Source: Balneolales bacterium ANBcel1
Lineage (GTDB): Bacteria; Bacteroidota; Rhodothermia; Balneolales; Natronogracilivirgulaceae
DNA length: 64,000 nucleotides
Direction of reading: 5' to 3'
Assembly: GCA_029688905.1 (NCBI GenBank)
Contig: JARULB010000004.1
Location: forward strand, 310,001 to 374,000
Part shown: positions 4,497 to 58,072 of the stretch, piece by piece
Layout: every line of letters begins with the position of its first letter
Numbering within the stretch: position 1 is the stretch's first letter
Position numbers and translations under genes: made by a program
The notes under the pieces: generated by a model
Told to the model about the DNA's origin: nothing
Seen by the model: the letters and a program-made list of their open reading frames with translations, nothing else
The model's database searches: none

Positions 4497-7436
4497 ATGA
4501 CTTTATCCGTTAACGGTTCCCGAAGCGGCACCGGCTCCAGCCTCTTTTCAGTCCCGTCGGCCGTTTTTCTTCTGGTTTTGCTCTTTTCCATGCCCCTTTC
4601 CGGGACGGCGCAAACGTCCGGCGACACCGGCCTGCTTTTTTCTATTCCGGTTTCAAAGCAGAGCGAGGCCACGCTACCACCAGGTGGCCGAATACCGGTT
4701 TCGCTGAATCAAAACCTGCTGCATTCCGATTTCAGTATCGGCCAGATCCTGGAAGTTCCGGAAACCGACGGCAGCATCTCTTCCTACCGGATTACAGCTG
4801 TCTCCCGCTATGTGAAGGGATATACCTCGGTGAGGGCCGATCATGTGGATGATGCCCACGATCAGCTCACTTTTTCATATGGGGAAGGCCGGATGCTGGG
4901 AACACTCGATCGCTATTCGCGCGGAGCGTCGCTTCGCATACTGCCCGAAGGCAGCGGCAACTTCAAGCCGACTGCGGACGGCGGTACCGGGCACGTTTTG
5001 ATGATGAGGGATCCGGAGACTGAGGATATTCTGGAGTGCGGCACGACGATGGAGAATCACAGCAGTTCGGTCGACCACCACTCCCACACGGATCCGCTGA
5101 GCCGGAGCCACCTGGTGCCCGCTTTTGATGTTTCAGATTATGATGAGGCGGGGGTACCCATAGACCTGCTGATTGTCTACACCGGAAGCGCCCGGACATG
5201 GGCCGAAGAAAATGAGGGAAGTATTGAGTTGGTGATCAGCGAAATGATGAACAGGTCCAACGAGGCGCTTGAGAACAGTCTGACCGGGATCGAGCTTCGG
5301 GTTGTTCATACGCATGAAACCTCCTTTGAGGAGGACGGCAACGACAGTGCCGGCGACCTGCGCCGCATCACCGCTTCCCGCGACTTCAATCCGTTTGAAG
5401 AGCCTCAAAATTACAGCGGATACATGCTGAATGTCCATGATCTCAGGGATGAATACGGCGCCGATCTGGTTGCCATGCTGGCGGATGTTGAAGATGTGGG
5501 CGGGATAGCCTGGCTGATGCTGGACATGGCCGGGGCACCGCAGCTGGGTTTCTCGGTGAACCGGATCCAACAGATGAGCAGCACCTACACCTTCGTACAC
5601 GAAATCGGTCATAATCTGGGCAACGCGCACAGCCGTGACCAAAATGGGTCGCCGGCCGGCCCGTTCGGAGGGTTGTTCAACTACTCCGCGGGATTCCGTT
5701 TCAGTGATGCAACCGACTCCTCCTTTGCGACGGTGATGACATACGCCGAAGGCAGAAGTCAGACTATTGGCCATTTCTCCAATCCGGAGGTACCGTTCCG
5801 GGGGGAATATACCGGCACCTATTCGGACTCCATCGGTCCCGCTGACAATGTCAGGAGTATGCGGCTGAGTCGTCACGTGGTGAGCCAGTACCGTCCGCAG
5901 ATGAGCGAGCCTCCGGTTCTAAACGTCGATCGGAGCCTGATTGAAATCGATACCGAAACCGGCCAGCCTGCCGAAGTCCGGTTTTTTGTATCCAACGACG
6001 GAGCCAGCACCCTGCACTGGAATGCCGATATCCACTACAGTGTAACGGATCTTGCAAAATCTTCGACGGATGCAACAGCCGAAGCCCTCCCCAGCCAAGG
6101 CACGGGCGCTCCGAAAGACGATAGTGCGCAGTCCGGAGATACCGCGGGATCCCGAATGGATCAGGGGGGACAGGCCGTCGGCTTTGAAGGCCCCCAAAGG
6201 CCGTCATGGGGTGGCGGCATTCCCTATCTGATTCCGGATGCCGGATTGTGGGCGGTTGCCAAATCCGGTCCCCAATCGCTGACCGGAGCGCCTGCCGCAC
6301 CGCATATTACCGACCCGGTGCTTTTTAAAACCGGCTTTGAAACGGATGAAAATTACAACACCGGTTCCTATCTGATTCTCAACGACTGGGTGGCATGGCC
6401 CAGAGATGCCCAAAGCCGGTACAATATCTCCACGGTGAGTCCGGCAGCCGGATCACAACATTTGCGGCTTACGCCCCGAACCAGTTTGAATGAAAATATG
6501 TATGTCGGGGTTGCGGCTCCATATCCGGGTCCGCTTACCAATCAGGGGTACTCGGTTTCCATGGATCTGCGGTTCAGCAGCGACGAGTCTCAGAATGAAT
6601 TCCACATAGCTATTGACGAGGGCTCAACCAACCGGAACGCCGCCTGGGTCATATTCGACGACGGCGACATCATTGTGCGTAACAGGACCGGCACCGACAG
6701 GGATTTTGTAAGCCTGTACAATCCGATTCTCTCTGACGGTCTGCTGTGGGAGGCGGGACAATACTTTCGGTTTGAGATTCAGATGGATCCCGTTCGTGAT
6801 GAAATCCGGTATCTGGTTGATGACAGCCTGGCATATACCGGCAACCTTTACGGCGGAAGCGCCCCTGAGCAAGTTTACCTGCTTCACAGAAATTTCCACA
6901 CCAGCGAAACGTTCAGCATCGACAATGTTTCAATAAAGGCACTTCCCGGCCAGGAGTTTCCCCGTTTTCAGTTCCGGAAGCCATACGGTACCGTGGCCCC
7001 CGGTTCCACCGAGGAAGTCGTGCTGGAAGTGATCGCCGACCGCATTCCCGGCGGAACCTACGATTTTGAAATTCAGGTCCATTCAAACGACCCGCACGCA
7101 CCGGGCCAACCGGTTCCTGTCCGGATGCATGTGGAAGCCACCACGGTGCCTTCCGAGCCCGAGCCGGTTGCTCACCATCTGGCGTTGCATCAGAACTATC
7201 CCAACCCGTTCAACCCGGCAACAACCATCCGGTACGAACTGCCGGAGCGCGGGCACGTCCGTCTGGCGGTATATGATCTGCTTGGACGGAGAGTTTCCAC
7301 ACTGGTCAACGAACGACAGGATGCAGGAAGGCACGACGTGGCATTCGATGCATCCCGCCTGTCAAGCGGAGTCTACCTGTACCGTCTTGAGTCGGCCGGC
7401 CAAACACTCACAAGGCACATGATGCTGGTTAAATAA
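4497..7436 (+). CDS. Secreted metzincin metalloprotease with T9SS type A sorting domain
   Basis: This 979-residue protein is probably exported by the Sec pathway and then released or anchored by T9SS. A hydrophobic signal segment lies at residues 18-38, ending in a GTAQT-like cleavage region. The catalytic domain carries HEIGHNLGNAH (368-378), the three-histidine zinc site of metzincins, and a Met-turn VMTY with Met414, so it resembles reprolysin/M12-type proteases with all ligands intact. A propeptide-like region comes first. After the protease comes a low-complexity stretch, a concanavalin-like sandwich region (about 615-820) and an Ig-like segment. The last ~80 residues hold QNYPNPFNPATTIRYELPE, LAVYDLLGRRVSTL and SSGVYLYRL, the standard T9SS sorting domain ending in MMLVK. 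Substrates are unknown. Its stop codon abuts that of the convergent cargo gene. Confidence 0.92.
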   Translation: MTLSVNGSRSGTGSSLFSVPSAVFLLVLLFSMPLSGTAQTSGDTGLLFSIPVSKQSEATLPPGGRIPVSLNQNLLHSDFSIGQILEVPETDGSISSYRITAVSRYVKGYTSVRADHVDDAHDQLTFSYGEGRMLGTLDRYSRGASLRILPEGSGNFKPTADGGTGHVLMMRDPETEDILECGTTMENHSSSVDHHSHTDPLSRSHLVPAFDVSDYDEAGVPIDLLIVYTGSARTWAEENEGSIELVISEMMNRSNEALENSLTGIELRVVHTHETSFEEDGNDSAGDLRRITASRDFNPFEEPQNYSGYMLNVHDLRDEYGADLVAMLADVEDVGGIAWLMLDMAGAPQLGFSVNRIQQMSSTYTFVHEIGHNLGNAHSRDQNGSPAGPFGGLFNYSAGFRFSDATDSSFATVMTYAEGRSQTIGHFSNPEVPFRGEYTGTYSDSIGPADNVRSMRLSRHVVSQYRPQMSEPPVLNVDRSLIEIDTETGQPAEVRFFVSNDGASTLHWNADIHYSVTDLAKSSTDATAEALPSQGTGAPKDDSAQSGDTAGSRMDQGGQAVGFEGPQRPSWGGGIPYLIPDAGLWAVAKSGPQSLTGAPAAPHITDPVLFKTGFETDENYNTGSYLILNDWVAWPRDAQSRYNISTVSPAAGSQHLRLTPRTSLNENMYVGVAAPYPGPLTNQGYSVSMDLRFSSDESQNEFHIAIDEGSTNRNAAWVIFDDGDIIVRNRTGTDRDFVSLYNPILSDGLLWEAGQYFRFEIQMDPVRDEIRYLVDDSLAYTGNLYGGSAPEQVYLLHRNFHTSETFSIDNVSIKALPGQEFPRFQFRKPYGTVAPGSTEEVVLEVIADRIPGGTYDFEIQVHSNDPHAPGQPVPVRMHVEATTVPSEPEPVAHHLALHQNYPNPFNPATTIRYELPERGHVRLAVYDLLGRRVSTLVNERQDAGRHDVAFDASRLSSGVYLYRLESAGQTLTRHMMLVK

Positions 7437-44295: not shown

Positions 44296-47200
44296 ATGGC
44301 AATTCGTAATTCGTCACTGGTTCTGCTTTCAGGATGGTTTATGCTCCTGGTGGTCGTTGCTTCCGCAAGCGGGCAGAGTTTCCGTGCCGTAAGCAAAACG
44401 GCCGAGTTCACCGAATACGAGTATCGCAACGACAACCTGGCCATCGGCTCGCCGAAATACCTGATGGCTCCCTGGCGTGACGGTAGTGCCCGCTACCGTG
44501 TGATGGCGCAGGAAATTGTGCCCGTCACAGCAGACTCAAGCCAGATGCATTATGCGAAGAACGCGGAATTTTTCCTGATCGCCGACCGGCGCAGTCCGGT
44601 TATCGAGATCGGCGAGCCCGGCCATACGCGAGGAGCATATCTGGCCCAGCTTACTGTCAATGTCTCCCGCCTTGCCGACAGAGACGCCGGAGCGTTTCAG
44701 GTTCTCCGGCACATGCGAATTCGCATCTATCATGAACAGGAAGAGTCCCGGGCGAGGCGGTCCGTTCACGAAACGGCACAGGTGCAGAGCAGCCCGCTTT
44801 CAAGTGGTGAGTGGTTTAAAATCCCCATCCCGGAAGATGATCTTTACGTACTTGACGCGGACTATCTTGATGCGCTTGGTGTGGATATTGCATCGATCGA
44901 CCCGAACCGGATCCAGATCTGGTCCACCAATGGCTACATTATTCCAAGTGCCAACAATGAACCCCGGTCGGAACTGACCCAGGTCAGGCGCATTGTGGAA
45001 GCCGAGTCCGGCAACAGTTTTGGGGAAAATGACCGGGTCATCTTTTACGCCAATGGCCCGAACCGGCATTTTCTGGATCAAACCGCCAACCGGTTCCAGC
45101 ATGAGCTGCACCCGTATGCCGCTACCAACTACGTCTTTTTGACGGTCGGTGACGAACCGGGCAAGCAGATGGTTTTGCGGACAGCTGAAGAGATCGGCTC
45201 CCCAACCCGGGAGGTCCGGCAGTTTCGGGATTTCCGCTGGCTGGAAGAGGACCTGGAAAAATCGGAGTCACGCATTAAATCGGGCCGTTACTGGTTCGGC
45301 CAACGCCTGGAACCGGCAAGAACCTCAACCATTTTCACCGACACGCTTGCCGGGTTTGTTGACGGGTCCGATCTCGAAGTTGAGCTTTCGATGGCTGCCA
45401 GGGCCCTTTCTACCTCCGGATTCCAGGTAATTGTCAACAATACCTCCCTGCCGCGGATCACTCTGCCGGGAATCTCGAGCTTCACCTCGGCCACCGGGGA
45501 ATCCGCCAGGGTGACCGAGAGACGCAACACGTTGTCCAGCGTAACCATTAATAACGATATTCTGCAGATTCGGGCCACCTACGAAAGCAATCAAAGCGAT
45601 GCCAGGGGCTGGGTGAACTGGATCCGGATCCGTGCCGACCGGCACCTTCAGGCACATGACGGAAAACTCCGGTTTCATCCTCCCGATGACAGCGACGGGA
45701 GCCCGGTGCGCTATCGCATCAGCGGTTTTGACAGCACACCCATCATCCTGGATGTGACCGACCCGGTATCCAACCCCGTGATGATTGAACCTCTTACCGA
45801 TGGCAACGAATATACCGCCGTCTATTACTCCGACCGCCACCGGCAGTTTTTTGCCGCCAGCAGATTCAAAACACCCCCGGCGGGCGAGGCGCTCTCCAAC
45901 CAGAACCTGAGAGATCCCGGAGTGTTTCCCGACTATGTAATCGTAACCGCGCCGATCTTCCTGCAACAGGCACAACGGCTGGCGGACTACCGGCAATCCC
46001 GAGACGGCCTGACTCCGGTCATCGTCACACAGGAACAGATTTTTAACGAGTTCAACGGTGGAGTGCCCGATGTTACCGCGATACGTGACTATCTGAAACA
46101 CCTGTACGACCGGGGCGCTGAATCCGGGCAGCAACGGCCGGAGTACCTGCTGCTGCTGGGCGATGCCACATACGACTTCAAGGGGGTCATACGAAATCCG
46201 GCCCTTCAAAACCATGTATTCACCTTCCAGAGCGAAGAATCCATCAACAGAACCTATTCGTACGCCAGTGACGACTACTTCGGCTTTTTGTCGGATGATG
46301 GCGGTACCTGGAGGGGACGTGAACTGGTTGATCTCGGAATCGGACGCCTCCCGGTCCAGACCCCGGACCAGGCCGACCTGCTCATCGACAAGATCAAGGT
46401 GTATGAAGACCCGAGAAACCGCGGTGACTGGAACAACCTGTTTACGTTTATTGCGGATGATGATATCGCCAGTCGGGGCAACGAGCGAGATTTGCATATT
46501 CTGAATGCCGACGGGACCGCCGATGTCATTGACAGGGATCTTACGGGAATCCGCCTGGATAAGATCTATCAGATCTCCTATCCCTCTGAAAACACCAGCG
46601 CGGGCGTACGGGTACCGCAGGCAACCCAGGCCATGATCGACCGCATCAATAACGGTACGCTGGTTTTCAACTTTTCGGGACACGGTTCCGAACAATTCCT
46701 GACCGATCAGCGGCTGTTCACCTCAGACGATATCAGCCGCCTGAATAACCGTAACCGGCTCAGTATAATGGTAACGGCCACCTGCTCATTCGGCCGTTAC
46801 GACAACACCGAGGAGCACTCGGGAGCGGAAAAGATGCTCCTCCATCCGGACGGTGGCCTCGTTGCCGCGCTCACAACCTCGCGTGTCGTGTTCACTTCAC
46901 CCAGCCCCACACACAGCAACTTCGGGCTCAATCGCGTATTAACCGAGGAGATGACACGCCGGGACGAGAACGGACGGCCGCAGCGCCTCGGCGACATCTT
47001 CCGGAATACCAAAATTACGCACATCGGTTCCAGCGACAATTCCCGAAGGTTTATCCTGCTCGGAGACCCCGCAATGCGCATAGGGCTACCCGAGTTCCGG
47101 GCAGAAGTAACACACATCAACGGAGAGGCGGTCCCGCAGGGAGATTCCCTGAATCATGAAAATGACCTGGATGATGCACAGATTCAGGCCGGCAACAGTT

Positions 47201-48336
47201 TTGCCGGAAATGGAGATCCTGTCGGTGAAATGGATACCGTGAACGGCGGGCCCTCACCACTGATAGAACTGCGCGCGCTGGACCAGGTAAACATCAGCGG
47301 CCATGTTTCGCGGGCGGACGGCTCTGTCAACACTTCCTTCAACGGTGAGGCGAATGTCCGCGTATACGATGCCGAAAGGCTGGTGCGCTTCCCGGATCGC
47401 GATTGGGTAGCGGAAGGCAACTGCTATCTCGACGACTGCGGATACCTTGTTCAAACCGACGCCCTGTTCAGCGGCAGGGTCTCCGTGTCGGACGGGGTTT
47501 TCTCCAGCCGTTTCATTATCCCCAAGGATGTCTCCTATTCGCAAAACCCCGGTCGAATTCACGTCTTTGCCCGAGAGCGCGACCACGATGCCGTGGGAGC
47601 CACTTCCGTATTCCGGATCAGCGGACGCAACCCCGATGCCGATGAGCTGGATAACAGACGCGGGCCGGACATCGACATTTTCCTGAATGACGAAATGTTT
47701 GTGGACGGCGGAATTGTAAACGACGCTCCACAGCTGATCATCCTGCTTTCGGACGATGCCGGAATCAATACTACCGGAGCCGGAGTTGGACACGAGATCG
47801 TAGCGATTATCGAGAACCGGGATGATCCTTCAAACCGCCGTACCATCTCCCTCAACGAGTTTTACCAAAGCGAGCTGGACGATTTCACCAGCGGAAGAAT
47901 TGAATATCCGCTGAGCGGGCTGGAAGAAGGAAGCTACCGCCTGCGGGTCAGGGCCTGGGATGTCTTCAACAACATGGGCGAATCCGATGTCACCTTCCAG
48001 GTATTGGACAGCAAGGACTTGCAGATTCGCAACGTGTTCAACTACCCCAACCCGATGCACAACTTCACCCATTTTATCTTTGAGCACAATCAGCCGGGAA
48101 TCCCGATGGATATTTCCATCCGAATTTATACCTTAAGCGGAAAACCTGTGGCCACCATTCGCAGGGAGCAGATGATTACCGCCGGCAATATGGTTCGCCT
48201 GGATTGGCACGGAAGGGATGATGATCAGCACCGGCTCGCCACAGGCACGTATCTTTACCATGTGCAGGTACGGGCCGATACCGCCAACGGACGACAGACC
48301 AAAGACAAAATTGAAAGACTTGTCATATTACGATGA
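44296..48336 (+). CDS. porU: Type IX secretion system sortase PorU
   Basis: This 1346-residue protein has a signal peptide (about 1-27). PorU is the gingipain-fold (C25) surface sortase that removes T9SS sorting domains and links cargo to A-LPS. The caspase-like core carries His796 in NFSGHGSEQFL and Cys830 in TATCSFGRYD, both catalytic residues intact. LLLLGDATYDFKG and the YASDDYFGFL loop fit the family. The C-terminus has NYPNPMHNFTHF and a GTYLYHVQV segment, a sorting-domain-like end that PorU is known to keep. The length is near the family norm. porV follows 45 bp later, the usual partner order. Confidence 0.93.
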   Translation: MAIRNSSLVLLSGWFMLLVVVASASGQSFRAVSKTAEFTEYEYRNDNLAIGSPKYLMAPWRDGSARYRVMAQEIVPVTADSSQMHYAKNAEFFLIADRRSPVIEIGEPGHTRGAYLAQLTVNVSRLADRDAGAFQVLRHMRIRIYHEQEESRARRSVHETAQVQSSPLSSGEWFKIPIPEDDLYVLDADYLDALGVDIASIDPNRIQIWSTNGYIIPSANNEPRSELTQVRRIVEAESGNSFGENDRVIFYANGPNRHFLDQTANRFQHELHPYAATNYVFLTVGDEPGKQMVLRTAEEIGSPTREVRQFRDFRWLEEDLEKSESRIKSGRYWFGQRLEPARTSTIFTDTLAGFVDGSDLEVELSMAARALSTSGFQVIVNNTSLPRITLPGISSFTSATGESARVTERRNTLSSVTINNDILQIRATYESNQSDARGWVNWIRIRADRHLQAHDGKLRFHPPDDSDGSPVRYRISGFDSTPIILDVTDPVSNPVMIEPLTDGNEYTAVYYSDRHRQFFAASRFKTPPAGEALSNQNLRDPGVFPDYVIVTAPIFLQQAQRLADYRQSRDGLTPVIVTQEQIFNEFNGGVPDVTAIRDYLKHLYDRGAESGQQRPEYLLLLGDATYDFKGVIRNPALQNHVFTFQSEESINRTYSYASDDYFGFLSDDGGTWRGRELVDLGIGRLPVQTPDQADLLIDKIKVYEDPRNRGDWNNLFTFIADDDIASRGNERDLHILNADGTADVIDRDLTGIRLDKIYQISYPSENTSAGVRVPQATQAMIDRINNGTLVFNFSGHGSEQFLTDQRLFTSDDISRLNNRNRLSIMVTATCSFGRYDNTEEHSGAEKMLLHPDGGLVAALTTSRVVFTSPSPTHSNFGLNRVLTEEMTRRDENGRPQRLGDIFRNTKITHIGSSDNSRRFILLGDPAMRIGLPEFRAEVTHINGEAVPQGDSLNHENDLDDAQIQAGNSFAGNGDPVGEMDTVNGGPSPLIELRALDQVNISGHVSRADGSVNTSFNGEANVRVYDAERLVRFPDRDWVAEGNCYLDDCGYLVQTDALFSGRVSVSDGVFSSRFIIPKDVSYSQNPGRIHVFARERDHDAVGATSVFRISGRNPDADELDNRRGPDIDIFLNDEMFVDGGIVNDAPQLIILLSDDAGINTTGAGVGHEIVAIIENRDDPSNRRTISLNEFYQSELDDFTSGRIEYPLSGLEEGSYRLRVRAWDVFNNMGESDVTFQVLDSKDLQIRNVFNYPNPMHNFTHFIFEHNQPGIPMDISIRIYTLSGKPVATIRREQMITAGNMVRLDWHGRDDDQHRLATGTYLYHVQVRADTANGRQTKDKIERLVILR

Positions 48337-48381: not shown

Positions 48382-49491
48382 ATGTTTAATTTGAAGAATT
48401 ATCTCTACACTCTCGTATTATCCGTTTTGCTGTTATTCTCTGCCGCTGCTTCTCATGCACAGGTAGGGGTAACGGCTGTGCCCTTCCTCCAGATTGAACC
48501 GGATTCGAGAACGGCCGGTATGGGGAACTCCGGTGTCGCTATTGCCGACAACGCGACTGCCATATACTGGAATCCCGCAGGCCTGGCATTTCAAGAGGGT
48601 CACGAAGTGAGTCTGACGCACGCCGACTGGCTGCCCGATTTTAACGTGGACATGTTCTATGACTACCTGGCCGGGAAATACTACATCGAAGGCATCGGAA
48701 CCATCGGTGCCCACATCACATACCTGAACCTCGGGGAACAGGAGCGTCGCGGTGAGGACGGCCAGTACCTCGGCGATTTTTCCAGTTATGAAGTGGCCGG
48801 GGGCTTCTCCTACGGTTTCAAGCTCACCGATAACCTGGCTCTCGGAACCGGTATCCGTTTTATTTTCAGTAATCTTGTTCCTTCCGGCACCATGGTTAGC
48901 GAGCAGGAGGCCCGCAACGGAACCAGTATCGGTGTGGATATCGCCGCACTCTACCGTACGAATCCATTTACGGTGCTCGACAGGGAAGCCCAGTTCAGCG
49001 CCGGAGCAAACCTCTCGAATTTCGGTCCGCGTATCCAGTACACGGATGAAGCCCAGAAAGACCCGCTTCCCACCCTTCTGCGTGTTGGCTGGGCCTATAA
49101 AATGAATCTTGATCAGAACGGGTTTAATACCATCACCATCAGCAACGACTACTCCAAACTGATGGCCAGGCGCGGCATGAGTCCGTTTGAAGCGCTCTAC
49201 AACTCCTGGGGCTCCCTCACCCACCAGGAAAGTGAAGGAAACAACGTAACGGTACCCCTGAGTGAGCAGATCATGATCGGAACCGGAATCGAGTACTGGT
49301 ACGACAACCTGTTCGCGCTCCGTGCCGGGTACTTCTACGAGTCACCCAATAACGGTGCCCGCGAGTTCCTCACATTCGGTGCCGGCTTGCGCTACAACAT
49401 CTTTGGCGTTGATTTCAGCTACATCTATACTATTGAAGAAGATCACCCGCTCGCCAATACCCTGCGCTTTACAGCGTCCCTTCACTTTTAA
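48382..49491 (+). CDS. porV: Type IX secretion outer membrane channel PorV
   Basis: This 369-residue FadL-type barrel protein is the shuttle that carries T9SS cargo from the translocon to PorU. A signal peptide covers about 1-28 (cleavage near SHAQ). The N-terminus has FLQIEPDSRTAGMGNSGVAI and NATAIYWNPAGLAFQ, the diagnostic block of the PorV/PorQ family. The C-terminus ends LRFTASLHF. The gene position directly after porU supports PorV rather than PorQ. Confidence 0.92.
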   Translation: MFNLKNYLYTLVLSVLLLFSAAASHAQVGVTAVPFLQIEPDSRTAGMGNSGVAIADNATAIYWNPAGLAFQEGHEVSLTHADWLPDFNVDMFYDYLAGKYYIEGIGTIGAHITYLNLGEQERRGEDGQYLGDFSSYEVAGGFSYGFKLTDNLALGTGIRFIFSNLVPSGTMVSEQEARNGTSIGVDIAALYRTNPFTVLDREAQFSAGANLSNFGPRIQYTDEAQKDPLPTLLRVGWAYKMNLDQNGFNTITISNDYSKLMARRGMSPFEALYNSWGSLTHQESEGNNVTVPLSEQIMIGTGIEYWYDNLFALRAGYFYESPNNGAREFLTFGAGLRYNIFGVDFSYIYTIEEDHPLANTLRFTASLHF

Positions 49492-49526: not shown

Positions 49527-52500
49527 ATGTTGCATTCCTTTCGTGAAAGCAGAAGCCCGGTCCTGGTGATCGTGCTTCTGCTTTTTGCATATCCCTCATG
49601 GTCATTGCCTCCGTCCGACAAGACGGTTCCCGCCCCCAAACTTATTTCCCAGGAGTCACTCGAATCGTCGCGTTCCCGCGGCACCATTCACATCGTAGCG
49701 GTGATGGTGGAATTTGAGGAGGAAGATAACCGGTTCACTTCCGGTAACGGTACCTTCGACCTGCCCTATCTGCAGCGCGACGACATCACCATCGGCCCAC
49801 TGCCCCATGACCTCGGCTACTTTCAGGCGCATCTGGAGTTTGCGCAAAACTATTTCCAAACGGTTTCCGGCGGGCAGCTCAATATCGAATACACCATTGT
49901 CCCCGAAGTCCTTCGTCTCGACAACCCCATGAGCAGTTATGCGCCGCTGGGTGAATCTGGTGATGAAAACTACAAGCTCGCCCATCTGGCCCGGGATGCC
50001 TGGGCCGAAGCATCCGGGATCGACCTCCCGAACCTGTCGCAGCTGGACCAGGAACGGACCATGTTCATCGTATTCCATGCCGGCTCGGGCAGAAACATAG
50101 AACTGATGGGTACCAGCCTGGAAAAGACCCCGCAGGACATCCCCTCGGTCTATCTTGGTAACCGCTCTCTGGAACGCCTTCTCGAGCAACCCGGTTTTCA
50201 AGGTTTCGAGCTTGGTGACACCGGTTTGCGCGTCACCAATACCGCCCTGCTGCCGCAGACACAGTCGCGTGCCGGCGAAGACGTAACCGGGAATGAGTAT
50301 GTGCTCGAACTCTCCATCAACGGCCTGCTTGTCGCCAACATCGGCAGCTTTCTCGGACTTCCCGACCTGTTCAATACCGAATCCGGAACGTCGGCTATCG
50401 GACGCTTCGGGCTGATGGACGCCGCCTCCATCTTCTCCTACCGGGGTATGTTCCCGCCGGAACCATCGGCATGGGAAAAAATCTATCTCGGATGGGTCGA
50501 TCCTTTCGATATCGCACTTGATTCCGAAGAGCCCATTCAGCTGCCGGCCACATCGCTGCATCAGCCCGGAAGCATTGCGCGGCATGCCATCTCGGCAGAT
50601 GAGTACTTCCTCGTGGAGAACCGGCACCGCAACCCCTCGGGGGAACCGCTCGAGATTACGTTTCGCACCCCTGACGGAACGTATGTCACACGCAGCATCG
50701 ATCCAATGGATGAACGCTTCGATGCCAATAACGACTCGGACTATGATGAGATACTGGAACCCGGAGTGGTCGTGAATGTCAGCAGTTTCGACTGGAGCCT
50801 TCCCGGCGGACCGGATATCGCTCCGGACGGCAATGAAGACGATGATACCGGACGACTGCTGAACGGCGGGATACTCATCTGGCATATCGATGAAGCCGTC
50901 ATCCGCAACACCATCGACGACAACCGGGTGAATGCCGACAACAACCGAAGAGGGGTACAGCTCAAGGAAGCCGACGGATCCCAGGATATCGGATTTTCTT
51001 CAAGTCCCGAACGTTTTATCAACGGGAATGCCTTTGACTTCTGGTGGAGCGGCAACAACTTCACGGTGATCACCCCAACCGGCGACAGCCTTGTTGTCTA
51101 TGAAAACCGGTTTGGACGTGATACCCGCCCCTCCAATGAAAGCAATACCGGCAGCCCCTCATTTTTCGAGTTTTATTATTTCTCCGGCAACGAGCCCATA
51201 GCCTCTTTCCGCGCCCGCTCCCTGGGCGGAGTTTATGCCGACGCCATCTCCCATTCCTACCCCCGGCTTCCGGAATCCGCCTCCTTTTCGTACGAAGCTG
51301 CCCGATACCCGGTGAGTCCGGCGGTGATTTCGATTGAAACCGGCTCAACGAACAACCGCTTCGGCGAAATGCGCCGGGACCGGTCACCCGCTCCGGGCAC
51401 CACCGGCCTCTCCGCTTCCCGGCTGTTGTTGCTGCCCACCGAATCCGGTTTTTATTCGATGCCGCTTGATGGCAGTGAGCAGGAGTATCAGTTTGTGGAG
51501 CATCCCGATCCCTCCACCCCGCTCATTGCGGATAACCGCTTCTACGCCGGACAGATCCGCCCGGCCGGAGACAACGCACTTCAGAGCATCGCTTCATGGG
51601 CCTACGAAAACGGCCAGTGGACCATGCGCTGGCTGAAGGAAGAACAGCCCTCAGGCCCCGGTTTCCTGAGCCTGGAGGATCCCGGCATCCTGCATGCCGA
51701 CCGGACGCACCTGCTTCTGGATGCCGGCGACGGATCGGTGCTTTCGGACGAGCGCGACCCGGCTTATCAGCGCAGCGGCCGGATGAACGGACTCTCCGCC
51801 TTGCTGGAGGACGATCGGTTCGAACTTTCGGACGGATCTTTCTTTTTTCACCTCGATCGGGACGACCGGGAGTCCTTGCGCCAATATACCGGAAACCTGC
51901 GGTTCAGCGCCGATGCCGGGCCCTCGTTTTTTGTGCTCACCGACCACCGGCTCATTCTGGTCGATGACCTCGATCGCGGCGAATGGCAAGTGCAAACCCT
52001 GCTCGATGGGGATGACATCCTCTCCTGGCCCGCGTTTGGCGACTGGACCGGCGACCATGCCCTTGAAATTTTCATCACCGATGCCGCCGGCAACGCCATA
52101 CGGGGTTTTAACCGCGATGGCGGGGTATTGGACCGTTTTCCCCTGCGGGCTCCGCGCGGCCAGCGATTTACCGGGTCCGTTCTGCTGGCCGATATCACCG
52201 GAGACGGTCAGAACGAACTGATCGCCGGCGCACGGGACAGCCTCTCCTTCATCATCCACGCCTATGACCGTAATCACAGGCCTGTGGACGGGTTTCCACT
52301 GCTGGCCGGGTCATTATCCGGGGTAGCGAAGACATCCGCCACCGGTACCCCGTCCATTGCTGCGACACAGACCGGCGCATCCGGCAACAGGACGGCCGGT
52401 TCGGCTGCATCAGGGACCTCTTCGCACGGGGCCACAGGTCATAATGCAGGCATTGCCGCACAGCCTTCAGCATCTCCGATGATCTCGCAAAATGTGCCAT

Positions 52501-52955
52501 TACCTCTGATGATTGCGGCTGGACACCTGTTTGCCGTCTCACCGGCCGGTGAAGTACGCGCCTGGGAATTGACACAGCTTGGGGAGGTGGCCTGGGGGCA
52601 TGTCTACGGCCACCAGCCGGGGAACAAGGTCGGAATTGCGGTGGAAGACCGGGAACGGCAACGCGCGGCTTTCAACATCCTGAATGAGCGCGAAACCTAC
52701 AATTGGCCAAATCCCGCCGTCGACCATACCTACATACGATTTGAAACTTCGGATCCCGCCCGCATCGACATAACTGTCATAAGTCCTTCCGGTTCCGTGA
52801 TCTTCGAAAAGCAGGCGGAATCGCGAGGGCGATTTCCCGAAGAGATCAGGCTGAACACCTCCTCCTGGGGCAACGGAGTCTATTTCGGGCGTGTCCGCGC
52901 ACGTAACGGGCAGGGTTCGGAAACAAAAATTTTAAAAATCGTGGTTACGCACTGA
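49527..52955 (+). CDS. Secreted M6-protease-like protein lacking the zinc site
   Basis: This 1142-residue exported protein (signal about 9-28) resembles immune inhibitor A/M6 metalloproteases in its first half: HIVAVMVEFEEEDNRF, YFQTVSGGQLNI, FGLMDAASIFS, PSAWEKIYLGW, and the later IWHIDEAVIRN (His453, Asp455, Glu456) with VQLKEADG. The place of HExxHxLGLPD reads ANIGSFLGLPD (270-280), so both zinc histidines and the glutamate are gone, and no HExxH occurs elsewhere. A repeat-type propeller follows (FGDWTGDHALEIFITDAAGN, LLADITGDGQNELIAG), then an Ala/Ser/Thr/Gly-rich insert (about 930-990), and a T9SS-like end with NWPNPAVDHTYIRFET. It is probably a pseudoprotease. Its stop overlaps the next ATG by one base. 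Confidence 0.85.
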   Translation: MLHSFRESRSPVLVIVLLLFAYPSWSLPPSDKTVPAPKLISQESLESSRSRGTIHIVAVMVEFEEEDNRFTSGNGTFDLPYLQRDDITIGPLPHDLGYFQAHLEFAQNYFQTVSGGQLNIEYTIVPEVLRLDNPMSSYAPLGESGDENYKLAHLARDAWAEASGIDLPNLSQLDQERTMFIVFHAGSGRNIELMGTSLEKTPQDIPSVYLGNRSLERLLEQPGFQGFELGDTGLRVTNTALLPQTQSRAGEDVTGNEYVLELSINGLLVANIGSFLGLPDLFNTESGTSAIGRFGLMDAASIFSYRGMFPPEPSAWEKIYLGWVDPFDIALDSEEPIQLPATSLHQPGSIARHAISADEYFLVENRHRNPSGEPLEITFRTPDGTYVTRSIDPMDERFDANNDSDYDEILEPGVVVNVSSFDWSLPGGPDIAPDGNEDDDTGRLLNGGILIWHIDEAVIRNTIDDNRVNADNNRRGVQLKEADGSQDIGFSSSPERFINGNAFDFWWSGNNFTVITPTGDSLVVYENRFGRDTRPSNESNTGSPSFFEFYYFSGNEPIASFRARSLGGVYADAISHSYPRLPESASFSYEAARYPVSPAVISIETGSTNNRFGEMRRDRSPAPGTTGLSASRLLLLPTESGFYSMPLDGSEQEYQFVEHPDPSTPLIADNRFYAGQIRPAGDNALQSIASWAYENGQWTMRWLKEEQPSGPGFLSLEDPGILHADRTHLLLDAGDGSVLSDERDPAYQRSGRMNGLSALLEDDRFELSDGSFFFHLDRDDRESLRQYTGNLRFSADAGPSFFVLTDHRLILVDDLDRGEWQVQTLLDGDDILSWPAFGDWTGDHALEIFITDAAGNAIRGFNRDGGVLDRFPLRAPRGQRFTGSVLLADITGDGQNELIAGARDSLSFIIHAYDRNHRPVDGFPLLAGSLSGVAKTSATGTPSIAATQTGASGNRTAGSAASGTSSHGATGHNAGIAAQPSASPMISQNVPLPLMIAAGHLFAVSPAGEVRAWELTQLGEVAWGHVYGHQPGNKVGIAVEDRERQRAAFNILNERETYNWPNPAVDHTYIRFETSDPARIDITVISPSGSVIFEKQAESRGRFPEEIRLNTSSWGNGVYFGRVRARNGQGSETKILKIVVTH

Positions 52956-55900
52956 TGCAATTATTCTGTTCCCTTTTCAAAAACCCGCTCTCTGCCATTC
53001 CGGCGTTGTTGATGCTGCTGTTTATGGCCGTTGGCGTACTGATTCCCGCGGACACGTATGCCCAGCGGGATCCTGCTCTGTATAACTATCCCCAGAACCA
53101 CCTGGGTTGGTACACGATTGAAAGCGATCACTTTCTGGTCCATTTTCAGGAGGGCAGCAGCCGGCCGGCCCAGGTCGCATCCCGCATTGCTGAAGAGGTG
53201 TACGGCCCTATCACCGAACTGTACGGGCACGAACCGGAGCACAAAGTTAGCCTGCTGATCATCGATCGCCTGGACTACTCCAACGGTGCCGCTTTTTTCT
53301 ACGACAACAAGATTGAAATCTGGCTGCCGTCGCTCGACACTCCGCTTCGCGGTACGCACAATTGGCTGAGAAACGTCATCACCCACGAGTTTACCCATAT
53401 CGTGCAGCTGCAGGCTTCCATGAAGCGAACCCGGCGGGTACCTGCCATTTATCTGCAATGGCTCTCCTACGAGGAGGTCCGGCGCCCGGACGTGCTGTAC
53501 GGCTTTCCGAGCGGCATCATTTCCTACCCCCTTGCGGGAATCAGCATGCCGGCCTGGCTTGCGGAAGGAACCGCGCAATACATGCACAGCGAGCTTCATT
53601 ACGATTACTGGGATTCGCACCGCGACATGCTTCTCCGAACCAGGATACTCGATGACAACTACCTGGGCCTCGAAAAGATGGGCACGTTCAGCTCCAAAAC
53701 CTCACTGGAGCGCGAGCTGACCTACAACCAGGGATTCGCGTTCACTTACTACCTTGTCGACCGGTTTGGGGAAGAGGCCCTGGCCGATATTACCAGGGCG
53801 TTCAGCCAGCGGGGTGTCTATGATGTGCGCAAGGCCATCCGGGAGGCCACCGGCATTGACGGAAGAGTGGTTTTCAACGACTGGATTGAAGAGCTCAAGG
53901 CCCACTACGAAGAGATGGTCGAGGGCACGGAGAAGGATCCGGAGAACCGGAGCTGGATAGAACCGTTCGGCTTTTTCAATTTTTACCCGGCCTATACGCC
54001 GGATGGCGGTCAGATCGCCTATCTCTCCAACAAGTTCAGCGACGGAGCGATGGCCTTTCTATATATGCGGGATGTCGAAACCGACGAAGAGGAGAGCGCA
54101 TACGAAGCGCGCCTTCTCGAAGAACCCTCCCTCAGTCATGCGTCACACACCAGCCACAGTAACGCTCACCAAAGTCTTCGTAACCGAAATCTTCCCCCGG
54201 GCCACCCTTCATCATCCACCATCAACCACAACGGACACAGCTGCCAGTTCGGAGCCCTGCAGCTGCGCCGCCTTGAGACCTCCTTCAGCTTCTCCCCCGA
54301 CGGTGAGCGCATCGCCTACAGCCGGTCGAGCCTTAACCCCCAGGGAGAGCAGTACCGCGACCTCTATATTCATGACATCGCGACCAGTGACTCCGAACGT
54401 CTGACTTTCAGCCAGCGGCTCCACGATCCGGTCTGGAGTCCGGATGGCCGCACACTTGCCGCCGGCAAAATCGAGGACGGCTCCGTCAACCTCTTCCTTT
54501 ATGATCTGGAACGGGACAGCCTCATCCGGGTCACCGATTTCCGGCACGGCGAACAGGTGTACCGGGCGGCCTGGCACCCCGACGGCGACCGCCTGTTCTT
54601 TGCCTATGCTGATACCGCCCATCGCGGCATTTATGAACTGAGCGCCCCCGGCTCCCAGGACCCGGCTTACGAACTTTCCGGCCATGAAACCGGACACGTG
54701 TCCATCTTCCCCCGCTTTGCCGATAACGCATGGCGTGAATCCATGCGCCCGGTTCTGACCAGCCCGGCCGTCGATTACCGCGACCCCGCCGTAAGTCACG
54801 ACGGCACATGGCTCTATTACAGCGCCGATCACAACGGGATCTTCAACATCTACCGGCTCTCGCTTGACACCGGGAAATCACAAAAAATCACCAATGTCGC
54901 CGGCGGGGCCTTCATGCCCCATCCGCATCCTCACAAAAAAGCACTGCTCTATTCCGAATACGTCTCCACCGGCTACAAAATCGCCGAACTGGACCTTTCG
55001 GCCACGGAATTCGTGAATGGTTCCTCCCCCGGAGCCCCGGTTTCCACCGCCGGCACCACCGGTGAACGCCCTGCAGCCGGGCAGCAGTCCGTCGCCGAAA
55101 CGCAAGCCCGGGCCGAAGATCGAACTGACTCCGTCCATCATCCCGCTGCCTCGCAGTTTGCGGATTTTACTGATCCCGGATTCCATGCTTTCCCGGTCAC
55201 GGGTACAACCACAGGCACGACTACGATCACGAACTCGACCACGACCACAGGCACGGCTAGTGCCACAACGACAACTACAGTCACGGCCACGATTTCGGCC
55301 TCCGCCGACGATGCCGGCAGCGATGCGTTTCCAAATGCCGACCGTCTGCTGCGCAATCCGCATGCATCCGCCACGTGGCAGGGAGCGGACCACACACCGA
55401 CTTCCATAACCAGCCTGAACATCTTTGACGACACCGATCTTGAACCGCTGTCGGAGACCGCGATCGCGCATGCCGATACCGGCTCCTACTCGTTTCAGAT
55501 CTCCACCCGCGGATCCTCTTCGGAGCGGAGTTTTTACAGGTACGATGATCAGTTCACCACATTTCAATTCTACCCGGTCATTCGTTTCGACAACTACTCC
55601 CGGATGAGGGGCAGCAATTCGGATCTGCTGACCAGCGGGCAGTTCGGCGACCTCGGGAACAACCTGTGGCGCGATGCCAAAATCGGCACCTATTTCGTTT
55701 CCAGGGAGATGCTCGAACGCTTTACCATATTCGGCGGCGGCCTCATCGGAGCAGGTTCCAGGCCAAGCGACGGCGTCAGTAATTTTTTCAATCCGGGACG
55801 CCTTGTTGATCTGGACCGTGACCTGTTCCTTGAAGTGGAATACGTCGGTCTGCCCTTCCTGAAGCGGCACTGGTCACCTACGCTCTCGGTATCCTTCTTC

Positions 55901-56860
55901 AATATTCGGAGAAATGTCAGCGACGGACTGCAAATCGAGGAGTTTCCCTGCACCTCGTGCATGCCCGACACCACATCCACCGACATTGCCTATAATATGT
56001 GGCAGGTCGAGGTGAACGCCATCAGCAAACTGAATCGATGGAGCCTGCTCGAATTGGGGTACTATTACAGCCCCTACCGCGTATCGACCGAATCTTTCTA
56101 CTCCCGGGAGTTCCGGCAGGAAGTAGCCGGTTCAACATCGCGCTACTACATCGGCTCCACCTGGTCTGCTGCCTGGATGTTTGATTTTTCCCTGCCCGAC
56201 CGGCACGGCGATATCGCACCGCTCGGCTGGCGCGGCTTGATCCGGTACCGGTATGAGCCCAGCGAACTGCTCGATTCCTACGATATCCGGGACGGGACAC
56301 TCATCCCCGTTTACGACAACTTCAACAACCATTCTGTTGAAATTGACCTGCGTGCCGGCACGGTGCTGCGGCAACAGCGCCTGAGTCTGCGCACCCGGTT
56401 CTTCAGCTATTTCGAAGGGCCTGACGAATTTTTCTATCTGGATTATATCGGCGGCATGATCGGCATGCGCAGTTATCCGTACTTTGCACTGGGCGGAACA
56501 ACAACCGCGTTTACCCAGCTCTCCTGGTTTGTACCGCTTAAAACCGATATCTATCAGCAAATGGGGCGTTTTACCCTCGACAAAGTATTCCTGCGCCTGT
56601 TTGCCGAAGCCGGAAACGGCTGGGGCGGCCCCATTGACATCGACCGGAGAATCAAAACCGGGGCCGGTGCAGAGCTGCGAATCGGGATGAATTCCTACTA
56701 CTTCTTCCCAACCAGTTTTTTTATCAGCGGCGCCTACGGATTCAATTCGTATGATATCCAGCTTCCCGAAGCATTCCTTACGGAAGTTCCCGACGGGAGA
56801 GTTGATTATGGGAACCAATTACTAATAAATTTCGGCATTCTGTTTGATTTCGAGTTCTGA
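52955..56860 (+). CDS. Gluzincin-like protease, TolB-type propeller and outer membrane barrel fusion
   Basis: This 1301-residue protein has a signal peptide (about 13-36). A peptidase-MA-like domain follows, with zinc site THEFTHIVQ (His144, Glu145, His148) and third ligand Glu204 in LAEGTAQYM, all intact. TolB/PD40 blades come next (FSFSPDGERIAYSRSS, DPVWSPDGRTLAAGKIEDG), broken by a His/Ser-rich insert (about 393-430) and a Thr-rich linker (about 748-782). The last ~430 residues look like an outer-membrane barrel, ending NFGILFDFEF. It may be a surface-exposed processing protein. Its ATG overlaps the stop of the M6-like gene (TGATG), so the two are translationally coupled. Confidence 0.85.
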   Translation: MQLFCSLFKNPLSAIPALLMLLFMAVGVLIPADTYAQRDPALYNYPQNHLGWYTIESDHFLVHFQEGSSRPAQVASRIAEEVYGPITELYGHEPEHKVSLLIIDRLDYSNGAAFFYDNKIEIWLPSLDTPLRGTHNWLRNVITHEFTHIVQLQASMKRTRRVPAIYLQWLSYEEVRRPDVLYGFPSGIISYPLAGISMPAWLAEGTAQYMHSELHYDYWDSHRDMLLRTRILDDNYLGLEKMGTFSSKTSLERELTYNQGFAFTYYLVDRFGEEALADITRAFSQRGVYDVRKAIREATGIDGRVVFNDWIEELKAHYEEMVEGTEKDPENRSWIEPFGFFNFYPAYTPDGGQIAYLSNKFSDGAMAFLYMRDVETDEEESAYEARLLEEPSLSHASHTSHSNAHQSLRNRNLPPGHPSSSTINHNGHSCQFGALQLRRLETSFSFSPDGERIAYSRSSLNPQGEQYRDLYIHDIATSDSERLTFSQRLHDPVWSPDGRTLAAGKIEDGSVNLFLYDLERDSLIRVTDFRHGEQVYRAAWHPDGDRLFFAYADTAHRGIYELSAPGSQDPAYELSGHETGHVSIFPRFADNAWRESMRPVLTSPAVDYRDPAVSHDGTWLYYSADHNGIFNIYRLSLDTGKSQKITNVAGGAFMPHPHPHKKALLYSEYVSTGYKIAELDLSATEFVNGSSPGAPVSTAGTTGERPAAGQQSVAETQARAEDRTDSVHHPAASQFADFTDPGFHAFPVTGTTTGTTTITNSTTTTGTASATTTTTVTATISASADDAGSDAFPNADRLLRNPHASATWQGADHTPTSITSLNIFDDTDLEPLSETAIAHADTGSYSFQISTRGSSSERSFYRYDDQFTTFQFYPVIRFDNYSRMRGSNSDLLTSGQFGDLGNNLWRDAKIGTYFVSREMLERFTIFGGGLIGAGSRPSDGVSNFFNPGRLVDLDRDLFLEVEYVGLPFLKRHWSPTLSVSFFNIRRNVSDGLQIEEFPCTSCMPDTTSTDIAYNMWQVEVNAISKLNRWSLLELGYYYSPYRVSTESFYSREFRQEVAGSTSRYYIGSTWSAAWMFDFSLPDRHGDIAPLGWRGLIRYRYEPSELLDSYDIRDGTLIPVYDNFNNHSVEIDLRAGTVLRQQRLSLRTRFFSYFEGPDEFFYLDYIGGMIGMRSYPYFALGGTTTAFTQLSWFVPLKTDIYQQMGRFTLDKVFLRLFAEAGNGWGGPIDIDRRIKTGAGAELRIGMNSYYFFPTSFFISGAYGFNSYDIQLPEAFLTEVPDGRVDYGNQLLINFGILFDFEF
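55198..55295 (+). repeat. Thr-rich low-complexity coding stretch
   Basis: About 98 bp of near-repeating ACN triplets encode a Thr-rich linker (VTGTTTGTTTITNSTTTTGT and similar, residues about 748-782) between the propeller and barrel of the 1301-residue protein. The repeat could vary in length between strains by slippage. Confidence 0.7.
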
Positions 56861-57067: not shown

Positions 57068-58072
57068 ATGATCCGTTTCGGCTTTAATATCTCCGCTTTT
57101 GTATCTGCCGCCCTGATGGCGCTTTCAATAATCGGCCTGTCTGCGGCCGGCGCAACCGGAACGGTGCCCGGCGCTCCCACATCCGCCATACAGCCCGAAC
57201 AAGGCGCTGAATCCGGCTCATTGTCGATTGCGGACCTTCGCTCGAGACCCATCCTCCCGGGACCCCGCCACGTTTCACTGCGCGATAGCGACAACGGCTG
57301 GAATTCCGGGTTCATGGCATCGATCAGCAATTCCCCCGGCTACGCATTCCTGGCTTCTGCGGCACTACCCGGCCTGGGGCAGGCAGCCAACCGCCAGTGG
57401 TGGAAAACAGCCGTGTTTGTCACGGTTGAGGCCACTGCAATCGGTTTGTACCTCCACCGCCGCGACCGCGGACGTGACGGCGAGCGTTATTATGAATCTT
57501 ACGGTGACGAGCACTGGAGTGTGGTGAAGTACGCACAGTATGTCGTCGAAAACCACCGGCACGAGCATGGCACCGACTTCGAGGATCTGCTGAACGAAGG
57601 GGTCGAGTATGATCCGGATCTGCCGTGGGGCGGCATTGAACCCGCCTTCGATACCGATATCGACTGGGCCGTGATCGACCGTGAAGCACTGAATGCAGCC
57701 GAACGCCGTAGCCTCTACGCGAACGGCCGCCCTTTTTCCCATACGGTAGAGCCGTACGGCGGCCAGCAATATTATGAATTGATGAGCAAATACTATCAAT
57801 TCGGGCCCGGATGGAGGCAGTGGGAAACCGGTGTGCATAACATTGACGAGCAGCGGATGCCTGAGGATTTTTTATACCATGCCCAGATCGGATACGATTT
57901 CAACGATGACCTGAACGTGGCCCGAAACATGCTCACCATACTGCTGGCAAACCATTTTATCGCCGCTTTCGACGCCTATTTCACCCAGCAGCTCCGCAGA
58001 GCCAGGGTACAGCCCACCGCATCCATGGATTACGGGGTGCGCCCAACAATTGGCTTTGAATACCGTTTTTAA
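57068..58072 (+). CDS. DUF5683-like exported membrane protein
   Basis: This 334-residue protein has an N-terminal hydrophobic signal (about 8-28) and a long polar linker. The block FLASAALPGLGQAANRQWWKTAVFVTVEATAIGLYL (about 96-132, in two parts) is the hallmark of the DUF5683/TM2-like family, whose role is unknown. The middle (about 140-270) is hydrophilic, with aromatic-rich motifs such as YYELMSKYYQFGPGWRQW. A second amphipathic segment follows (NVARNMLTILLANHFIAAFD), and the end is IGFEYRF, typical of an outer-membrane C-terminus. The gene is 207 bp after the 1301-residue protein and 17 bp before the PASTA gene. Confidence 0.75.
   Translation: MIRFGFNISAFVSAALMALSIIGLSAAGATGTVPGAPTSAIQPEQGAESGSLSIADLRSRPILPGPRHVSLRDSDNGWNSGFMASISNSPGYAFLASAALPGLGQAANRQWWKTAVFVTVEATAIGLYLHRRDRGRDGERYYESYGDEHWSVVKYAQYVVENHRHEHGTDFEDLLNEGVEYDPDLPWGGIEPAFDTDIDWAVIDREALNAAERRSLYANGRPFSHTVEPYGGQQYYELMSKYYQFGPGWRQWETGVHNIDEQRMPEDFLYHAQIGYDFNDDLNVARNMLTILLANHFIAAFDAYFTQQLRRARVQPTASMDYGVRPTIGFEYRF

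Follow-up and report, generated by a model that had tools for sequence, protein, structure and literature searches.

What does a protease-like protein with a dead zinc site do among the genes of a T9SS? The known parts of this system come mostly from Bacteroidia, for example Porphyromonas and Flavobacterium. We analysed a window of 64,000 nucleotides from Balneolales bacterium ANBcel1, the forward strand of which encodes the T9SS sortase PorU (a C25 peptidase; 44296..48336; NF033707 1017 bits, Peptidase_C25 326 bits), the outer-membrane shuttle PorV (48382..49491; NF033710 279.5 bits, above cut-off) and an inactivated M6-like protein of 1142 amino acids, here called M6i (49527..52955). The gaps are 45 bp between porU and porV and 35 bp between porV and M6i. 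The original prediction for this locus had placed M6i directly downstream of porU-porV, as the coordinates confirm, and had proposed a conserved, inactive surface protein that might be a dedicated T9SS part, such as a cargo receptor or attachment scaffold.

Identity, fold and zinc site of M6i

M6i is a full member of the NCBIfam family NF052323 (T9SSA_dep_M6i, 'T9SS-dependent M6-like inactivated metalloprotease') and differs from it in no structural respect. Its score of 1101.8 bits lies well above the cut-off (600 bits), the match spanning residues 29-1142, and it is the sole full-length member in its own genome (1096.7 bits in that profile search). The dead protease itself is already catalogued by NCBI, and since NF052323 covers the family, the combination of an inactivated M6 domain with a T9SS tail is not new. 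The original prediction did not contain this family name, nor the downstream gene 4 and its joint loss with M6i described below. Searching open-access full text for M6i and for the T9SS of these lineages, we found no paper on its function; likewise, we did not find the gene row with gene 4, the nested losses or a sortase-less Balneolales T9SS described there.

Searching the genome with Pfam PF05547 gave zero matches, because M6i is too divergent for this model, which matched 11 of 59 M6i orthologues. The M6 domain model TIGR03296 matched M6i at E 3.7e-17, under the model's own cut-off, and matched the M6 regions of all 59 orthologues. Sequence searches of the PDB, with M6i and with a profile of its M6 region, returned chance-level matches only, so that a fold search was required; with the full-length model this mostly returned propellers, and the M6 region was therefore modelled separately. 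The AlphaFold2 model of residues 47-600 (49665..51326; pLDDT 87, pTM 0.89) found immune inhibitor A2 as its best Foldseek match in the PDB (4yu6, E 3.4e-15, TMq 0.55), with 4yu6 and 4yu5 at the top (E 3e-15 to 2e-14). As modelled, M6i has the M6 fold. The landmarks FGLMD, PSAWEKIYLGW and IWHIDEAV, on which the M6-type scaffold had originally been proposed, are all present.

The M6 region is followed by a fast-evolving, beta-propeller-like region (residues 601-1050, 51327..52676; full-length model pLDDT 84), for which the Foldseek matches include PorZ (5m11) and BamB (3prw) and which gives a weak FG-GAP_3 match. Within it, residues 936-987 (about 52332-52487) form a low-complexity stretch rich in Ser, Thr, Ala and Gly that is disordered in the model. 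The protein ends, as had been predicted, in a type A T9SS C-terminal domain (CTD; residues 1056-1142, 52692..52952), with scores above both cut-offs (PF18962, Por_Secre_tail, 28.4 bits; TIGR04183 27.3 bits); its N-terminus, read from the sequence alone, is hydrophobic. Mean pairwise identity is 47% for the M6 region versus 45% for the catalytic domain of PorU, and 49% for the M6i CTD versus 52% for the PorU CTD; the propeller region reaches 22%.

Compared with the M6 peptidases, which we take to be the thuringilysin family (immune inhibitor A, 4yu6), M6i shares the fold, the LGLPD and FGLMD motifs and an Asp at the third-ligand position, but has lost both His and the Glu and has gained the propeller and the T9SS tail. 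The zinc segment, expected as HExxHxLGLPD, reads ANIGSFLGLPD (residues 270-280, 50334..50366) and aligns to it without gaps. No HExxH was found anywhere in the 1142 residues, as originally noted, or in any M6i orthologue examined. We inspected this segment in 101 aligned sequences: the window copy, 80 loci from genome contigs and 20 from other genomes, among which a few rows may stem from the same genome. The orthologues come from Balneolales, from other Rhodothermia and from Ignavibacteria. Both His and the Glu are substituted in 101/101: A, S, G or N stands in column 270, E never occurs in column 271, and column 274 holds S, N or T. D280, in the third-ligand position, is D in 101/101; an Asp is rarely the third ligand among metzincins, as it is in thuringilysins (PMC12237041). 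That is, the zinc site was lost long ago and family-wide, and this comparison, which had been suggested together with the prediction, rejects a recent mutant, as the site is dead in all 101 rows.

The protein is nevertheless maintained. In the computable close pairs, M6i dN/dS is about 0.02-0.14, with synonymous sites near saturation in several of them, and a pair of loci from genomes without the sortase (L004/L007) gives 0.053. Since these values hold with the sortase-less pair included, M6i is kept up by selection; it is under purifying selection, and at such values a decaying pseudogene was rejected as well.

The conserved gene row and gene 4

Wherever a locus offered sufficient sequence (72/72), porV stands immediately upstream of M6i; on the downstream side, gene 4 follows at no more than 1.5 kb in 61 of 70 loci. 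In the window the M6i stop and the gene 4 start overlap by 1 nt, and a DUF5683 protein comes next in the row (57068..58072, forward strand; PF18935 37.7 bits), a position kept in most loci. Four deep relatives below the family cut-off (L089-L092) also have the order porU-porV-M6i-gene 4, and this order is ancient. The full row is also present in the cultured Gracilimonas mengyeensis (L012). In nine Ignavibacteria-type loci (L026, L036, L037, L041, L045, L049, L063, L068, L073), M6i is present and gene 4 is absent from the downstream kilobases.

Gene 4 (52955..56860, forward strand) encodes a Peptidase_MA domain (Peptidase_MA_2 34 bits), a PD40/TolB-like propeller (PD40 65 bits; E 1e-17 against TolB structures) and a probable Omp85-like C-terminal barrel. 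Its HExxH motif is intact (HEFTH, residues 144-148, 53384..53398, with E204 downstream), and H144, E145, H148 and E204 are invariant in 23/23 orthologues. A minority of orthologues give an Omp85 match in the C-terminal region (E 2.8e-7 at best), but the window copy gives none, so that the assignment of the barrel from sequence is probable rather than proven; weak matches to BamA, TamL and TamA were also obtained. At 1301 aa the protein is longer here than its orthologues, and around residues 690-800 it carries a low-complexity stretch rich in Ser, Thr, Ala and Gly. We know of no described protein in which a Peptidase_MA domain with intact motif is joined both to a TolB-like propeller and to what is probably an Omp85-type barrel.

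Distribution and loss of M6i

Across a phylum sample of 118 genomes, M6i occurs in 47, all of which carry SprA (47/47), and 44 of these 47 also carry PorU and PorZ. Three genomes that are 99-100% complete (G061, G081, G108) have M6i but neither PorU nor PorZ. Conversely, some genomes of this sample have PorU, SprA and PorZ without M6i, and M6i is absent from Bacteroidia-like genomes as well as from several families of Rhodothermia that have PorU and SprA. Since genomes of this kind occur, M6i does not belong to every T9SS.

Of 85 Balneolales genomes, 45 carry both PorU and M6i and 28 carry M6i without PorU; none has PorU without M6i, and 12 lack both. M6i is thus present in 45/45 PorU-encoding genomes, but since it is kept in 28 without PorU, it is not strictly a PorU cofactor. 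Apparently, these 28 of 85 genomes run a T9SS without its sortase: like the genomes of the PorU-less loci L003, L004, L006-L008, L010, L013, L014 and L124-L127, they come with SprA, PorV, M6i and CTD proteins. Three of the 28 were checked for PorZ, and all three are without it. SprA was found in all 12 genomes that lack both PorU and M6i. A C-terminal remnant of porU stands beside an intact porV in L126 (oriented 5999-6304) and L010 (8463-8768), two loci that look like one genome; it is a trace of sortase loss.

The ANBcel1 genome has 86 Por_Secre_tail stretches and hence a large T9SS cargo set; such stretches number 30-86 in seven PorU-encoding Balneolales genomes versus 7-32 in eleven PorU-less genomes, with G081 and G118 among the latter apparently being one genome. 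A proxy for CTD proteins, based on first-look candidate counts (correlation 0.997 with the Por_Secre_tail counts over nine genomes), declines in steps, with medians of 64 in genomes with PorU, 18.5 in those with M6i but no PorU and 10.5 in those with neither, the genomes being related. In Porphyromonas without PorU, uncleaved substrates remain bound to PorV (PMC5562754), and by analogy substrates staying on PorV may be the reason why cargo shrinks after sortase loss in Balneolales.

In the M6i-less Balneolales genomes we located the locus via the neighbouring rpe gene and could read ten of 12; the locus of G194, which has gene 4, is cut by a contig end and G181 gave no anchor match, so that both were left out of the losses. 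The ten loci keep the flanks thiolase-PorV and PASTA-rpe-PhoH, and M6i and gene 4 are both gone in 10/10; DUF5683 persists in two. The scars differ: L120 retains residues 6-73 of M6i beside residues 1006-1120 of gene 4 (both numbered as in the L003 orthologues), L121 part of DUF5683 and, as a weak match at E 0.001, residues 7-32 of M6i, and L116 a few residues of gene 4. A six-gene tree, in which some deep nodes are weak, implies at least 7 loss events assuming no regain, three of them around the M6i-bearing locus L003.

All ten resolved losses fall in PorU-less genomes only, and PorV is kept in 10/10. The association of M6i loss with PorU absence has a Fisher p of 2e-4, with related genomes treated as independent. 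The joint loss of M6i and gene 4 is weaker evidence than it seems, because the genes are adjacent and one deletion takes both, as visible in L120. The evolutionary evidence says that M6i is not lost as long as PorU is there, is tolerated after sortase loss and is then repeatedly lost, jointly with gene 4. An essential partner of SprA or PorV was rejected as a role, as the ten M6i-less genomes keep both.

Possible roles of M6i

Since its gene stands in fixed order with T9SS genes and is present wherever Balneolales keep PorU, M6i probably serves as an accessory component and not as an enzyme. Our preferred reading, put forward tentatively, is that M6i is a pseudoprotease with an accessory role in the PorV/CTD cargo pathway and works with gene 4. 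M6i would be exported through SprA by its own CTD and, we infer, held at the surface by PorV, in analogy to PorZ, the CTD of which PorU leaves uncleaved (PMC8545088). The dead M6 cleft and the propeller could bind cargo or glycan. The gene 4 product may be the active partner of M6i, and the pair would handle CTD cargo or check its quality before PorU processes it or while it does so. A wider claim, which we regard as doubtful, is that the row represents a T9SS variant in which M6i and gene 4, as an outer-membrane metallopeptidase-propeller-Omp85 protein, form a module that handles cargo or controls its quality downstream of PorV; the module would be needed where a sortase has many CTD cargos to process, and dispensable after sortase loss.

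The same pair might instead be an autonomous surface or outer-membrane module, for adhesion, glycan binding or as a peptidase with its pseudoprotease regulator, where the T9SS just exports M6i and the link to cargo processing is incidental. The joint loss of both genes from genomes in which PorV and SprA remain would fit such a module, as would the survival of M6i beyond the loss of PorU and PorZ and the HExxH that gene 4 keeps intact in 23/23 orthologues. We consider it unlikely, because zero losses in 45 PorU-encoding genomes and the strict adjacency to PorV exceed the needs of an independent cargo pair, and nine loci have M6i with no gene 4 nearby.

M6i carries a standard type A CTD in a genome with about 86 CTD-bearing stretches, and could thus be one ordinary cargo that came to lie in the porUV operon by chance and drifted to non-enzymatic binding. 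For ordinary cargo, a fixed gene order and presence in every PorU-encoding Balneolales genome are unexpected; M6i is moreover single copy and kept over class-level distances, and its CTD and the PorU CTD are conserved to about the same degree, all of which makes this explanation improbable.

The strict form of the original prediction, a component of the PorU-PorZ-PorQ attachment complex acting as cargo receptor or anchor scaffold, fares slightly worse. Like PorU, M6i is encoded in the operon with porV and has a similarly conserved CTD, which may be retained as those of PorU and PorZ are; no Balneolales genome has lost M6i while PorU is present. PorU itself belongs to a different family, that of a cysteine peptidase, and M6i outlasts it in many genomes. 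PorZ also has a propeller, a type A CTD and a link to the T9SS, and ranks second in the PDB for the full-length M6i model, but it has two propellers, the N-terminal one of which (PF21544) finds no match in M6i, and no M6 domain, and its gene lies elsewhere (PorZ match at C5:117969-118442 in the ANBcel1 genome). In the three genomes checked, it is PorZ that is gone along with PorU, and M6i that is kept. A replacement of PorZ by M6i was rejected, since the two coexist in 44 of the 47 M6i-bearing phylum genomes, which leaves no vacancy. Nor is M6i confined to genomes with PorU, as would suit a part of the attachment complex (PorU, PorV, PorQ, PorZ): there are 28 Balneolales exceptions. What holds of the proposed dedicated T9SS part is the link to T9SS genes (PorV in 72/72 loci, M6i in 45/45 genomes with PorU); an obligate part in a PorU/PorZ attachment complex is not supported, given these exceptions, the three checked among them also being without PorZ, and the persistence of SprA and PorV in ten genomes without M6i. 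Very improbable, finally, is an enzyme that uses another metal site or different chemistry: H184, E364, D504 and, mostly, H453 are near-invariant polar residues of the M6 region, but HExxH is missing and the column of the catalytic Glu never holds E.

Should M6i and gene 4 indeed work on CTD cargo, as in the accessory pseudoprotease reading, a large share of the phylum would run a T9SS with an undescribed module. The nested losses provide a natural experiment: sortase-less genomes that keep SprA, PorV and CTD proteins, with or without M6i, make it possible to ask which parts the sortase needs.
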